From contig CAIYYT010000055.1 of the NCBI GenBank assembly GCA_903930455.1, positions 1-38,880 on the forward strand: 38,880 bases of DNA, given 5' to 3'. The translations under genes were made by a program, and so were the position numbers. The notes under the pieces were generated by a model. The model was given only the letters and a program-made list of their open reading frames with translations, had not been told where the DNA came from and did no database searches. Source of the stretch: an uncultured bacterium (lineage in GTDB: Bacteria > Zixibacteria > MSB-5A5 > CAIYYT01). Positions 1,996 through 7,783 of the stretch are shown piece after piece; within the stretch, counting starts at the first letter, position 1, and each line of letters begins with the position of its first letter.

Positions 1996-3237
1996 ATGCG
2001 CACACTGTTGCTGTTACTGGTTGCTTTCGTCATCCTCGGCGCAGAGCACCTCTTAGCCGAATCAGGCCGACTCTACGGAAAGCTTTTTACTACTGACAAC
2101 GAAGTTTTTGAGGGGTGGATACGCTGGGACAAAAATGAAGCGTACTGGGATGATCTTATCGATGGCACCTGCGATCAGAAGCCGAAGGGCGAAACCAAGT
2201 CCAAGACGGGGAGGCACTATCGTAGCAAAGAACGTCGAACCACCGTCAGTATTTTCGGACTGAAGTTTGGTGATGAGGGTTCGGTGGTCAGTTTGGGTGG
2301 TTCGTCCACCTGCCAATTGGCCTTTGGGCATGTCCGCACTCTTCTCAATGACGGTGAGGACGAGGGGACTTTGGTGCTCAAGACAGGGGACGAAGTGACA
2401 TTCTCTTCAAGCGCCGACCTTGGCGGCTCGGTACGCGAGATTCTTCTGAGCGACATCAAAGAAGGCGACATCTATTTCGACTGGGAAGATATCGAGAAGA
2501 TCGACTTCATGAAGGAGCCGAAAGACCCCAGCGATGGTATGGAGCGTCTGTACGGCCGCGTAAGCACAAGGCGCGCCGGCGAGTTCGAAGGTTGGGTTGA
2601 GTGGGATGTTGATGAAGTGTTTGGCAAGGACGACCTTGACGGCGAAGAACAGGGTGGCCGCACGCGTAAGATTACGTTCGACCGCATCACGGCCATTGAG
2701 CGACGCTCTTCATCTTCAGCCAGTGTTACCATCAAAGACGGCAAAGAAATGATCCTCAGCAACTCAAACGATGTCAATTCCGAGAACCGAGGCATCGTTG
2801 TCAAATCCGCCGAATTCGGCAGAATCAAGGTCTCTTGGGACGATTTCGAGAGGGTCGAGTTTATGCCTGTTCCCAAGGACAAGCTGCCGAAATATCAGGA
2901 TTTCGATGGTGGTACTCCGATTAAAGGCACGGTGACGACTGAAGACGGCGCGCAGTACAGCGGGCATATTGCGTGGGATGACGACGAAGAATTCACTTGG
3001 GAACACATCAATGGCGAATATAAAGGCATCGAAATGGATATTCCGTTCTCTGCCATAGCTTCCATTGAAAAAAGCTCTCAGCGCGGAGCGACTGTGACTG
3101 TCAAAAACGGCACCAGCTACCTCTTGCGCGGCTCGAACGACGTTGACGAAGACAACAAAGGTATCCTCATCACTCCCGATAACGGCAAAACTGAAGAAGT
3201 TGATTGGTATGACTTCGCCAAGTTAATTGTCAAATAA
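1996..3237 (+). CDS. Exported protein of unknown function with three tandem repeats
   Basis: A 413-residue protein with a classic signal peptide (MRTLLLLLVAFVILGAEHLLAES) and a strong GGAGG ribosome binding site. I do not recognise the family. The mature part consists of three repeats of roughly 105-155 residues. Each opens with a Gxxx(S/T)T....(F/Y)xGxIxWDxxE pattern: LYGKLFTTDNEVFEGWIRWD, LYGRVSTRRAGEFEGWVEWD and IKGTVTTEDGAQYSGHIAWD. Each continues with a TV.(V/I)K(D/N)G.....L..SNDV....GI stretch and closes with a V.W.DFE.V.F motif (DWEDIEKIDFM, SWDDFERVEFM, DWYDFAKLIVK). The repeats are acidic and look beta-rich. The next gene, 55 nt downstream, is also exported. A broken copy of the tail of repeat 3 lies at 4578-4685. 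A periplasmic or surface structural or binding role is a guess. Confidence 0.85.
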   Translation: MRTLLLLLVAFVILGAEHLLAESGRLYGKLFTTDNEVFEGWIRWDKNEAYWDDLIDGTCDQKPKGETKSKTGRHYRSKERRTTVSIFGLKFGDEGSVVSLGGSSTCQLAFGHVRTLLNDGEDEGTLVLKTGDEVTFSSSADLGGSVREILLSDIKEGDIYFDWEDIEKIDFMKEPKDPSDGMERLYGRVSTRRAGEFEGWVEWDVDEVFGKDDLDGEEQGGRTRKITFDRITAIERRSSSSASVTIKDGKEMILSNSNDVNSENRGIVVKSAEFGRIKVSWDDFERVEFMPVPKDKLPKYQDFDGGTPIKGTVTTEDGAQYSGHIAWDDDEEFTWEHINGEYKGIEMDIPFSAIASIEKSSQRGATVTVKNGTSYLLRGSNDVDEDNKGILITPDNGKTEEVDWYDFAKLIVK

Positions 3238-3292: not shown

Positions 3293-4498
3293 ATGATTGT
3301 CCCAAGCACCCGGATGAAATCAATATTATCAAGTATCTGTAGCACAGGAAAGCTAGCGCTGGCGCTGATGCTCGGCTGTCAGGTCGTCATTGCGGCCGAA
3401 AATCCGCCGCAAGTCGACTCCTTGCGGGCATACATAAAGGCCCACTCGCAGGCGCCGGAAGACTACATTGTCAGCAAGTTCAAGAAATACGACTATGTCT
3501 TTGTGGGGGAATACCACAAAATCAAGCAGGATCAACTGCTCATTCAGAAACTGATTCCCATACTCTATACCGCCGGCATCTACAATCTGGGGATCGAGTT
3601 CGGTAATCATGACTATCAGCCGCAGATCGACAGTCTCACCACTGCCGGAGACTATGATGCGAACAAGGCGCGGTGGGTGACTTTCAAGTGGTCTACTTGG
3701 TGGGGTTATCAGGAGTACGAGGACCTCTTTCGCTCTGCCTGGCAACTCAACCGATCTCTTCCCGCAGGCGCGCGGAAGTTCCGGGTTGTAGCTCTAAACT
3801 ATGCGCCTGACTACCGTAAGCTGACTCAAGAGGGCGGTCAGGAGAACTGGAAGCAGGTAAACTACCGAGGTGACCAGGATAGCTATATGGCGAGGATGAT
3901 CCTTGATGAATTTGTACACAAAGGCGAGAAGGCATTGATCTACTCCGGATCGCACCATGCCTTCACAGCTTATCATCAACCCGATTGTGATTTCAATCCG
4001 CTGAAGTTCTACCGGTTTGAGACCGGGCGTATGGGCAATCTCGTTCACGATTCGATTCCCGACCGCGTTTTCAACATCTTCCTGCACTCACCCTGGATGA
4101 CAATTCGTGGAGAGAATGATTACGAGTCGCCGATCATGGGCGCAATCGATACAGTTATGACCGCCTTCAAGAATCCGCGTTTCGGGTTTGATTGCGAGGG
4201 CACTCCGTTTGGGGAATTGCGCGACACGATGGCTTATTACAGCGTTGGCTACAAGGATTTCAAACTCGCCGATTTCTGCGACGGATATATTTATCAGAGT
4301 GACTTCTGCACGCTTGAAGGCGGAACACCCGATACCTTGTTTGTGTCCGAGGAAAATCTGCAGGAAGCGATCAAGGGCATAATGACCTGGAAAGGGCAGC
4401 AGAACTACAAGACGGTCGCTGATTTCAGCAATACTTTCAAATACTATACCGATCCTGCCGTGCTGTTTCCGGGTTTGTGTGCGGAGAGGAAGAAATAG
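3293..4498 (+). CDS. Exported Tiki/ChaN/EreA-like superfamily protein
   Basis: A 401-residue protein with a signal sequence (ALALMLGCQVVIAAEN; cleavage probably after AA, as the LGC is a poor lipobox). Two motifs place it in the broad ChaN/EreA/TraB-Tiki-like superfamily: FVGEYHKIKQDQLLIQKLI near residue 70, containing the GE.H core followed by a helix, and the strand YSGSHHAF near residue 220, preceded by a long helix. Members include putative haem-binding lipoproteins, erythromycin esterases and Tiki proteases, which use the GExH and later GxHH-type residues for metal or catalysis. The rest (WGYQEYEDLFRSAWQLNRSL, FRVVALNYAPDY) suits the same fold. The substrate cannot be told from sequence. 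An alternative start at Met 8 (3314) would give a tidier signal peptide. It follows the triple-repeat gene closely and may be co-transcribed with it. Confidence 0.7.
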   Translation: MIVPSTRMKSILSSICSTGKLALALMLGCQVVIAAENPPQVDSLRAYIKAHSQAPEDYIVSKFKKYDYVFVGEYHKIKQDQLLIQKLIPILYTAGIYNLGIEFGNHDYQPQIDSLTTAGDYDANKARWVTFKWSTWWGYQEYEDLFRSAWQLNRSLPAGARKFRVVALNYAPDYRKLTQEGGQENWKQVNYRGDQDSYMARMILDEFVHKGEKALIYSGSHHAFTAYHQPDCDFNPLKFYRFETGRMGNLVHDSIPDRVFNIFLHSPWMTIRGENDYESPIMGAIDTVMTAFKNPRFGFDCEGTPFGELRDTMAYYSVGYKDFKLADFCDGYIYQSDFCTLEGGTPDTLFVSEENLQEAIKGIMTWKGQQNYKTVADFSNTFKYYTDPAVLFPGLCAERKK

Positions 4499-4514
4499 CG
4501 CTTGTGTCTGGCAT

Positions 4515-4547
4515 CTTGACCCCTTTCCCTCGGGAGAGAGGGTCAAG
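4515..4547. repeat. Palindromic intergenic element, copy 1
   Basis: CTTGACCC (4515-4522) pairs perfectly with GGGTCAAG (4540-4547) around an inner CCCTCGGGAGAG segment, followed by GCGTGAGGATG. The CCCTcNNGGGAGAG core recurs at 4693-4712, so the two look like members of one dispersed palindrome family. They bracket the pseudogene fragment. No T-run follows, so an intrinsic terminator is less likely, though the hairpin could help end transcription after the ChaN-like gene. Confidence 0.5.
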
Positions 4548-4577
4548 GCGTGAGGATGCTGACATCAAGGCTGTTGC

Positions 4578-4685
4578 GGCTCAAACCACGCCGACGAAGA
4601 CAACAAAGGTATCCTCATCACTCCCGACAATGGCAAAACTGAAGAAGTCGATTGGTATGATTTTGCCAAATTGGTGGCAGAGTAG
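4578..4685 (+). pseudogene. Broken duplicate of the 3' end of the triple-repeat gene
   Basis: Read in frame from 4578, this encodes GSNHADEDNKGILITPDNGK and continues through EEVDWYDFAKLVAE to a TAG stop. The end of the gene at 1996-3237 reads GSNDVDEDNKGILITPDNGK...VDWYDFAKLIVK stop. By my hand alignment 90 of 108 bases and 30 of 35 residues match, and about half of the base differences are silent third-position changes. The homology fades just upstream (GTTGC--GGCTC against CTTGCGCGGCTC, a 2-nt deletion), there is no start codon or ribosome binding site, and a palindrome lies on each side. It is best read as the relic of a once-functional paralogue. The track ORF 4477-4728 crosses it in the wrong frame. 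Confidence 0.85.
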
Positions 4686-4692
4686 AGATTGC

Positions 4693-4712
4693 CCTTCTCC
4701 CAGTGGGAGAGG
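4693..4712. repeat. Palindromic intergenic element, copy 2
   Basis: CCTTCTCCC (4693-4701), AGT loop, GGGAGAGG (4705-4712): a short, strong hairpin sharing its core with the element at 4515-4547. It lies 8 nt after the stop codon of the broken tail copy. Confidence 0.45.
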
Positions 4713-4803
4713 TAAGCAGTACGAATGATCTCTCTGGCAAATTGAGCGCCAGCGACCGCATTTTGCCCCTCGTGATTCCTTTCACAAACTCCCCCGATTT
4801 TGT

Positions 4804-4882
4804 TTGACTCTCTTGCTATTTTCCGCGATATTATTAGCTAGTAAGATGCCCTCTTCGTGCCGGCCTGAACTGGTTCACCGGC
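4804..4882 (+). promoter_or_regulatory. Candidate promoter and 5' leader hairpin for aminotransferase-pckA
   Basis: TTGACT (4804-4809) is a near-perfect -35 box. It is followed by GATATT at 17-nt spacing or TATTAT (4829-4834) at 19 nt as the -10. Downstream, GCCGG (4859-4863) and CCGGC (4878-4882) enclose TGAAC-TG-GTTCA, giving a stable two-stage hairpin in the untranslated leader about 45 nt before the start codon. It could be an operator or an mRNA-stabilising structure for the two-gene operon. Confidence 0.5.
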
Positions 4883-4925
4883 AAGAAGGAGGCAGTTATA
4901 ATTTTAGGATGCGAGGCAAAAGACT

Positions 4926-6143
4926 ATGAGTATTAGCCAGCTTGCGCGCGAGATTGCCGAATCACCGACTCTAAAACTCAATGAGGAGGCGCAAGACCTT
5001 CGTGACCGAGGTGAAGCGGTCATTCATTTGGGCGCAGGAGAACCGAAAACCAAGATTCCTTTCGAGGCCATGTTGAGTACCGCTGCCCAACTTGCCACAG
5101 CCGAAGTCCGTTACACTCCGACCGAGGGTATCGGTTCGTTGCGGAGAGCGATTCTGCGCTACATGGAGGAGAACTACAACAAGGTCCTGGGCAAGGACAA
5201 CGTTATCGTCTCCAATGGCGCCAAACAGGCCATTTCTGCCGTGCTGACCACAATCATCAACCCGCTTGATGAAGTCATCATTGTGGCGCCGTACTGGGTC
5301 AGTTACCCGGAAATGGTCAAGATGGTTTACGCCAAACCGGTGATTGTCACGCCGGGGGATGGCAGATTCCAGCCGGAGCTTGATGATGTTACCGACATGG
5401 TCAGCTCCTACACCAAGGCGATCATTATCAACAGCCCTAACAACCCCTCGGGCGCGGTGTATTCTGCTGATTTCATTGGCGGTCTGGTTGAGTTTTGCGA
5501 GAAGAAGGGCATCTACTTGATCATGGATGACATCTATCATAAGCTGGTCTCTCCGCCGGCGCAATGGACGCCCTGCTACAAGTACTCGCAAGTTGATCCT
5601 AACCAGTCGAAGCTGATTGTGATCAACGGCGTGTCGAAACTCTATGCCATGACCGGATATCGTATCGGCTGGACGATTGCTAGCAAGCAGATTGTTGATA
5701 CGATGGTGAATGTGCAGGCCCAGACAACCTCCTGCCCACCGCTGTTGTCGCAGGTCGCGGCAGTCGGAGCGTTAACCGGACTACAGAGTGGCGTCGAAAG
5801 CTTGCGTCTGACTTTGGAAAACAACCGTAAGGTGATGATTCAGGAGCTGAATGCATTTGAAGGCGTGAAGCTGATTCCGCCGGACGGCACATTCTACTCG
5901 CTCCCCGATTTCCGCGCCTACAGCAATGATTCGGTCAAGCTGTCCAGGATGCTACTGGAAAAAGTATATGTCGTCGCGGTTCCGGGCAAGGAATTCGGCA
6001 TGGAAGGGCACTTGCGTTTGAGCTATTGCACGTCGGTCAAGGATATCATGGAAGGAGTTGCGCGCATCAAATGGGCGCTGGATCCAAATTCTCCTAACGA
6101 AATCTACATTGGCGACCGCAAGCTTGTGAGGGATTGGAAATGA
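4926..6143 (+). CDS. PLP-dependent class I aminotransferase (aspartate aminotransferase-like)
   Basis: A 405-residue fold-type I aminotransferase. Visible signatures are IVSNGAKQAISAVL (cofactor phosphate region), the substrate/PLP-binding Asn in INSPNNPSGAVY, the pyridine-N-binding Asp in LIMDDIYHKLV, the Schiff-base lysine in NGVSKLYAMTGYRIGW, and the carboxylate-binding arginine in GHLRLSYCTS. It most resembles subgroup I-beta enzymes, which transfer amino groups between aspartate (or similar amino acids) and 2-oxoglutarate; exact specificity cannot be read from sequence. A GAGG ribosome binding site sits 9 nt before the ATG. Its stop overlaps the pckA start (ATGA), so the two are translationally coupled: the oxaloacetate made by an aspartate aminotransferase is the substrate of PEP carboxykinase. 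Confidence 0.92.
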   Translation: MSISQLAREIAESPTLKLNEEAQDLRDRGEAVIHLGAGEPKTKIPFEAMLSTAAQLATAEVRYTPTEGIGSLRRAILRYMEENYNKVLGKDNVIVSNGAKQAISAVLTTIINPLDEVIIVAPYWVSYPEMVKMVYAKPVIVTPGDGRFQPELDDVTDMVSSYTKAIIINSPNNPSGAVYSADFIGGLVEFCEKKGIYLIMDDIYHKLVSPPAQWTPCYKYSQVDPNQSKLIVINGVSKLYAMTGYRIGWTIASKQIVDTMVNVQAQTTSCPPLLSQVAAVGALTGLQSGVESLRLTLENNRKVMIQELNAFEGVKLIPPDGTFYSLPDFRAYSNDSVKLSRMLLEKVYVVAVPGKEFGMEGHLRLSYCTSVKDIMEGVARIKWALDPNSPNEIYIGDRKLVRDWK

Positions 6144-7783
6144 TAGGCAATATCTGGAACATAAAGACACCGGCGGTTGATATCGCACAAGCACGCGCCA
6201 GCGAATTCAAACTGAGCAATCATGGCTTGGGCAATCTTGGCGTCGTGTATTGGAACCTGACCTCGGCTGCATTATATGGCGAGGCGTTGTTCCGCCGCGA
6301 AGGTACTCTGGCGCACATGGGACCACTTGTGGTCAACACCGGCAAGCACACGGCACGCGCCGCCAATGACAAATTTATCGTCCGCGAGCCAACCACCGAA
6401 AATAACATCTGGTGGGGACAGTACAATCGTCCGTTCAGCGCCGACAGATTCTCGGCCGTTTACGAACGACTACAGGCTTATTTGCAGGGACACGATTTGT
6501 TCGTGCAAGACTGTTATGTTGGCGCCGATCCGAACTACCAAATGCCGATTCGCGTGATCACCGAATTCGCCTGGCACTCGCTATTTGCTCGCAACATGTT
6601 CATCAAGATCGACGAGTTGGACAAACTGAAACGCTTTGCGCCCGACTTTACGATCATTGCAGTTCCGACCTTCCAGGCGATGCCTTCCATTGACGGCACG
6701 CTTTCTTCGACCTTCATCCTGCTCAACTTTGAACAGCGTTTAGTGATCATCGGCGGCTCTGCGTATGGTGGCGAGATCAAAAAATCGGCGTTTACGATTC
6801 TGAACTATCTGCTGCCGCTGCGGGGCATCATGTCGATGCACTGTTCGGCCAACGTCGGCAAAGATGGTGACACAGCGTTGTTCTTTGGTCTCTCCGGTAC
6901 CGGCAAAACTACGTTGTCCGCTGATCCCAGACGCAACCTGATCGGCGATGACGAGCACGGTTGGAGCGATGAAGGCGTGTTCAATTTCGAAGGGGGTTGC
7001 TACGCGAAGGCCATCAACCTGTCCGCGACGGCGGAACCGGAAATCCATGCCTGCACGCGCCGTTTCGGTACGATCCTCGAAAACGTCATTTTTGATCCTG
7101 TGACGCGCAAGCTTGACCTTGATGATGACGAGCGCACCGAAAATACACGCATCTCGTATCCGCTTGAATACATCGCCAACGCCATGCCGGAAAAGCGGGC
7201 AGGGCATCCCAAGAACATCATCATGCTCACCTGCGATGCAAGTGGTGTTATGCCACCCATCGCGCGCTTGACCCCTGATCAGGCGCTTTATCATTTTATC
7301 TCCGGATACACGGCGAAGGTCTCCGGCACCGAAATCGATATGGGCAAGGAACCGGAAATCACTTTCTCGGCCTGCTTTGGCGCGCCGTTTATGGTGCATC
7401 ATCCGGCCTACTATGCCGACCTGCTAAAGAAAAAAATCCAACGGCACAACGTCAATTGCTGGCTGGTCAATACCGGTTGGGTTGGTGGACAGTACGGCGT
7501 AGGACGACGCATCAGTATCAAATACACTCGCGCGTTGCTTGAAGCCGCTTTGACCGGCGCTTTGGACAAGGTCGAATATTATAAAGACGAAGTGTTCGGC
7601 TATAACGTCCCCAAAACTTGTCCGAACGTCCCCGATGATGTTCTGTACCCCTGGAAAAGTTGGCCTGACAAAAAGTCATACGACCAGAAGTACAAACAAC
7701 TGGCATCGTTGTACCGCGAGAATTTCAAGAAGTACGCCGACGGCTGCACGCCGGAAGTCTGCGCCTGCGGACCGAAGCTGTAG
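6140..7783 (+). CDS. pckA: Phosphoenolpyruvate carboxykinase (ATP)
   Basis: A 547-residue ATP-dependent PEP carboxykinase, which converts oxaloacetate and ATP to PEP, CO2 and ADP, the entry step of gluconeogenesis. Evidence includes the N-terminal VVNTGKHTARAANDKFIVRE, the substrate loop around YGGEIKKSAFT, the P-loop FFGLSGTGKTTLSADP, the kinase-2-like IGDDEHGW with FNFEGGCYAK, and NTRISYPLEYI. Length is normal. The track begins at TTG 6134, but ATG 6140 overlaps the TGA of the aminotransferase gene (ATGA) with a GAGGG ribosome binding site just upstream, so it is the likelier start. No intrinsic terminator with a U-tract follows; a palindrome lies about 30 nt downstream. Confidence 0.97.
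   Translation: MIGNIWNIKTPAVDIAQARASEFKLSNHGLGNLGVVYWNLTSAALYGEALFRREGTLAHMGPLVVNTGKHTARAANDKFIVREPTTENNIWWGQYNRPFSADRFSAVYERLQAYLQGHDLFVQDCYVGADPNYQMPIRVITEFAWHSLFARNMFIKIDELDKLKRFAPDFTIIAVPTFQAMPSIDGTLSSTFILLNFEQRLVIIGGSAYGGEIKKSAFTILNYLLPLRGIMSMHCSANVGKDGDTALFFGLSGTGKTTLSADPRRNLIGDDEHGWSDEGVFNFEGGCYAKAINLSATAEPEIHACTRRFGTILENVIFDPVTRKLDLDDDERTENTRISYPLEYIANAMPEKRAGHPKNIIMLTCDASGVMPPIARLTPDQALYHFISGYTAKVSGTEIDMGKEPEITFSACFGAPFMVHHPAYYADLLKKKIQRHNVNCWLVNTGWVGGQYGVGRRISIKYTRALLEAALTGALDKVEYYKDEVFGYNVPKTCPNVPDDVLYPWKSWPDKKSYDQKYKQLASLYRENFKKYADGCTPEVCACGPKL

Follow-up and report, generated by a model that had tools for sequence, protein, structure and literature searches.

Background

Additive integration, either of the Campbell type or with one-sided homology, leaves as its scar an intact gene, an insert, a truncated end of the same gene and then the old downstream neighbour. 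The survey of prokaryotic pseudogenes by Liu et al. (2004, PMC522871) recognised three origins for such sequences: native duplicates that became disabled, single-copy genes that decayed, and horizontal transfers that failed. REP elements are short dispersed intergenic palindromes, typically found close to the 3' terminus of the gene before them, and a GTAG/CGTC tag defines two REP super-families (Di Nocera et al. 2013, PMC3733652). The locus described here is a gene fragment set between two palindromes. It lies in a window of 38,880 nt from an uncultured Zixibacteria bacterium, by which window the whole stretch of DNA that was analysed is meant, and its features are collected in Table 1.

Table 1. 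Features of the fragment and its surroundings, in window coordinates.
Feature	Position	Strand	Evidence and remarks
Parent gene; product of 413 aa, all-beta, secreted-looking, three repeats	1996..3237	+	ORF; AlphaFold model
ChaN/Tiki-superfamily-like gene	3293..4498	+	Pfam Cofac_haem_bdg E=1.6e-10; between parent gene and remnant
70-nt hairpin, from ChaN stop codon to remnant	about 4501..4570	.	Fold z=-3.1; core GGGAGAG...GTGAGG at 4532-4555
Remnant, 5'-truncated second copy of the parent gene 3' end	4571..4685	+	In register 4578-4685; 2-nt deletion; without usable start codon
35-nt tract identical to parent gene 3145-3179	4593..4627	+	Diverged flanks, 4/15 and 14/58 differences
Shorter palindrome 3' of remnant, half REP-like element	4692..4712	.	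Core TCTCCCAGTGGGAGA; fold z = -2.3, weaker
Class I/II aminotransferase	4926..6143	+	Pfam Aminotran_1_2 E=6.3e-60; ancestral downstream neighbour of parent gene
PEPCK gene (product presumed), ancestral neighbour	6134..7783	+	Homologues at 79% beside aminotransferase in G002, G003

Results

A truncated second copy of a gene end

The initial annotation described a 108-nt copy of the tail of the upstream gene with a stop codon of its own, and this description is confirmed. The remnant matches the final 36 codons of the parent gene at 90 of 108 positions, third codon positions hold 13 of the 18 differences, and the copy ends in its own TAG stop. At the protein level the remnant matches the parent with E = 2.9e-14, and in a BLAST search of the 3.77-Mb assembly to which the window belongs only the parent gene (E = 4.9e-31) and the remnant were recovered, with no third place. 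Judged by these scores, the match is far beyond chance. Homology extends seven bases further upstream, to 4571, past a 2-base frame-shifting deletion (CTGTTGCG--GC vs CTSTTGCGCGGC). In the downstream sequence, homology between remnant and parent gene was not above shuffles.

The 5' 377 codons of the parent gene are missing from the remnant, and the open frame at 4563-4685 has no ATG, GTG or TTG ahead of its last codons. With no usable start codon the remnant is non-coding. It is clearly homologous to a coding gene but has lost the capacity to code, as a pseudogene remnant has, and its 115 bases are what is left, dead and untranslated, of the parent gene's second copy. Neither of the two readings against which the initial annotation had set its own applies here. 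A mobile repeat is ruled out, the fragment and the parent gene being the only copies in the genome. Part of an unrelated intact gene is also ruled out, as the sole overlapping + strand ORF is off-frame and has no family match.

The parent protein has no Pfam or NCBIfam match above threshold, and a fold search with it gave no match at E below 0.001. Its AlphaFold model is moderately confident (pLDDT 79) and has three beta-rich repeats. The 36-residue tail of the remnant corresponds to no more than the final strands of repeat three, so that even a translated remnant could not yield a folded unit. In an alignment-profile search the parent gene was found in 90 of 133 class genomes, with one copy in each (the two complementary pieces in each of G064, G092 and G102 are as expected of a contig-split gene and were counted as single-copy). 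The orthologue in G001, the only other genome of the same genus that was compared, has 93% protein identity. A homologue with 29% identity is carried by the Rufibacter tibetensis plasmid NZ_CP012644.1.

Selection on the copy before truncation

The dN/dS of the fragment, which the initial annotation had proposed as a check, was computed by the Nei-Gojobori method. Own gene and remnant are separated by 11.5 silent and 5.5 amino-acid changes, giving dS ~1.0, dN 0.068 and dN/dS of about 0.07 (0.068), with dS noisy over a stretch as short as 36 codons. The 27 central codons carry seven silent changes and no amino-acid changes. In a simulation, the copy evolved neutrally from its origin onwards while the gene itself was constrained, and silent changes could fall on the branch of the living gene. 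Amino-acid changes as few as those observed arose in 0.05% of the neutral-copy runs (P ~0.0005), and with a copy-branch ratio of 0.2 the observed count was typical. As neutrality from the start is rejected, the earlier claim that the copy was under protein-level selection before it lost its 5' part is upheld: within the limits of 35 codons, the copy diverged mostly while coding, before truncation.

REP-like palindromes on both sides

Both of the flanking palindromes with a common core that had been annotated at the locus are present, the 5' one as the core of the hairpin that takes up nearly all of the gap between the ChaN stop codon and the remnant. The GGGAGAG...GTGAGG motif was counted 61 times in G002 (control 0) and 7 times in the own genome (control 1), and palindromes with the TCTCCCAGTGGGAGA-type core occupy 6 places in the 3.77-Mb assembly (0 in the backwards control). 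In C176 this core is within a full REP-like element. The counts come from patterns broader than one limited to a 4-base loop, which had proved too restrictive. On dispersal, intergenic position and common core, both palindromes are REP-like. Given that REPs are typical near the 3' end of an upstream gene, palindromes are to be expected at the remnant. Among its family relatives, which have 1 to 13 of the REP-like motifs, G002 has ~61 (L039, G002:C109), a REP expansion in one lineage.

The palindromes had also been taken as the repeats that mediated a deletion, and this part of the initial annotation fails. The remnant lies between them, so recombination between the palindromes would delete the remnant and cannot have made it. 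A literature search on REP-mediated deletion found no paper with the terms used. A deletion or an illegitimate junction could still have had one of its ends at the base of the hairpin, and the palindromes should not be read as the cause of a deletion.

Gene order around the remnant

In G002 and G003, a stretch of ~0.9 to 3.5 kb that holds small genes in convergent orientation separates the parent gene from the aminotransferase and the gene we take, from its sequence, to encode PEPCK, which follow downstream. For G003 this linkage was read across two contigs that have an identical stretch of ~100 bases in common. In G004, PEPCK is upstream of the parent gene. The order in G002 and G003 indicates that the ancestor already had the parent gene and the aminotransferase as neighbours, and the remnant is at this ancestral place, just upstream of the aminotransferase. 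The similarity of 4686-4925 to the region upstream of the aminotransferase in G002 and G003 was not above shuffles, whereas G002 and G003 match each other. In G001, the 526 bases after the parent gene hold no such fragment. The aminotransferases of G000, G002 and G003 are at 81%; no close orthologue was found in G001 or G004, where the best matches (E=5.2e-19 and E=2.0e-35, respectively) have about 26% identity, through either loss or an assembly gap.

The ChaN-like gene has relatives in 17 of the 133 class genomes. G002-G004 lack a counterpart, G001 has only a 43% partial homologue at another place, and the GC content of the gene does not stand out. Judged by this distribution, the gene would be a lineage-specific addition between the parent gene and the remnant. 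Its closest relative, at about 52%, is in G028 (L099:3502-5817), where it adjoins a candidate tyrosine recombinase ORF and is near a candidate restriction-modification ORF. These neighbours, both named by eye, hint that the ChaN-like family may move.

Divergence of remnant and living gene

At synonymous sites the remnant differs from the living gene by 0.55 and from G001 by 0.73. Between the living gene and G001 the difference is 0.69 in the tail and 0.38 in the rest of the gene. On these values the separation is at the level of genus orthologues or above, and the split between remnant and living gene is about as old as that between species of one genus, or deeper. Against G001, the tail of the living gene stands out as unusually diverged (Fisher p=0.008). 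Silent divergence between living gene and G001 is uneven along the gene, running from 0.09 to 0.72 over windows of 35 codons, a pattern suggestive of recombination among relatives in the parent gene.

In the tail phylogeny, remnant and own gene are grouped weakly (63% ultrafast bootstrap, 88% by quartet sites), and the grouping is owed in part to the 35-base identical tract. This tract has a permutation p of 0.008 by base and 0.017 by codon, values to be read with the tract having been noticed after the fact. G001 differs within it at five silent sites, so that constraint alone does not account for the tract. Identity bounded on both sides by diverged sequence is the trace that a crossover or gene conversion leaves, with the same reservation that the tract was noticed after the fact.

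Discussion

Origin of the second copy

The explanation that we tentatively place first, though it falls a little short of probable, is that the second copy is the homologous gene end of a relative, imported by recombination in connection with the arrival of the ChaN-like gene. The donor would be a close relative, of the same genus or nearby, and the gene end would have entered by recombination with one-sided sequence homology, or by a single crossover. The ChaN-like gene may have come to lie between the ancestral neighbours, parent gene and aminotransferase, in the same event or chain of events. Additive integration of this kind would produce an intact gene, an insert and a truncated copy beside the old downstream neighbour. 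The locus has this arrangement: a gene that is patchy in the class and lineage-specific at this place separates the parent gene from the remnant, its GC is unremarkable, and no donor was found among the genomes compared. The 35-base tract would be the crossover itself or a later gene-conversion tract, and the REP-like hairpin would mark the junction as a usual occupant of such gaps, not as the agent of a deletion.

The initial annotation instead saw a second tandem paralogue, and an in-lineage duplication with both copies long under selection, the downstream one later losing its 5' part by a deletion ending near 4570, is a serious possibility, though a lesser one than import. The purifying-selection signature in the remnant, its placement by quartet sites with its own gene and not with G001, and a junction that coincides with the base of a stable hairpin are all in its favour. 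However, no intact second copy is present in the five family genomes or in the 90 class genomes with the gene, and since the gene is single-copy in all of the latter, long retention of a paralogue is out of keeping with this family. The ChaN-like gene must also have been placed between the copies, exchange between the palindromes would remove the fragment, and synonymous divergence as great as, or above, that to the sister species is explained at least as well by an imported allele. The genomes compared do not separate import from an old tandem paralogue; there is a modest hint of origin from a relative over local duplication.

The other readings are further from the data. A recent partial duplication of the 3' end only, neutral from the start, would suit the short size of the remnant, the non-synonymous changes and frameshift at its ends and the identical tract, but it is unlikely, being largely refuted by the simulation of a neutral copy branch and by the purely silent changes of the central codons. 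It is very improbable that the remnant is a silent cassette that still feeds variation into the C-terminus of the living gene by gene conversion, in which case it would be a silent donor varying that part of the protein. The identical tract between diverged flanks and the unusual divergence of the living tail from G001 could be read in this way, yet the encoded tails are only five residues apart, there is one cassette only, it is not conserved in relatives, and it carries a frameshift. Equally hard to credit is a functional non-coding element, a terminator or RNA, that uses gene-tail sequence by chance. The stable hairpin directly upstream of the remnant would fit such an element, but the pattern of conservation is codon-like, Rfam gave a chance-level SNORA30 match alone (E = 0.24, far under the gathering score), and terminator prediction made no call on the + strand.

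Comparison with known systems

The remnant is ordinary gene debris of a common kind, and on present evidence it has no wider consequence. Nonetheless, debris this short can preserve the trace of a past recombination event in an uncultured lineage. If imported, this one keeps an allele with genus-level divergence beside the living one, and would mark the entry point of a patchy gene. Like the pseudogenes in the prokaryotic survey (PMC522871), it is a disabled partial copy of a known gene; unlike them, it is only 36 codons long and is one gene away from its living homologue. The palindromes resemble REP elements (PMC3733652) in being short, dispersed, intergenic and near the 3' end of the upstream gene. 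A point of difference is the core, which here is GGGAGAG...GTGAGG. Additive integration scars differ in that no integrase, vector backbone or donor was found here, but they have the same layout as this locus, and it is from this layout that the resemblance is drawn.
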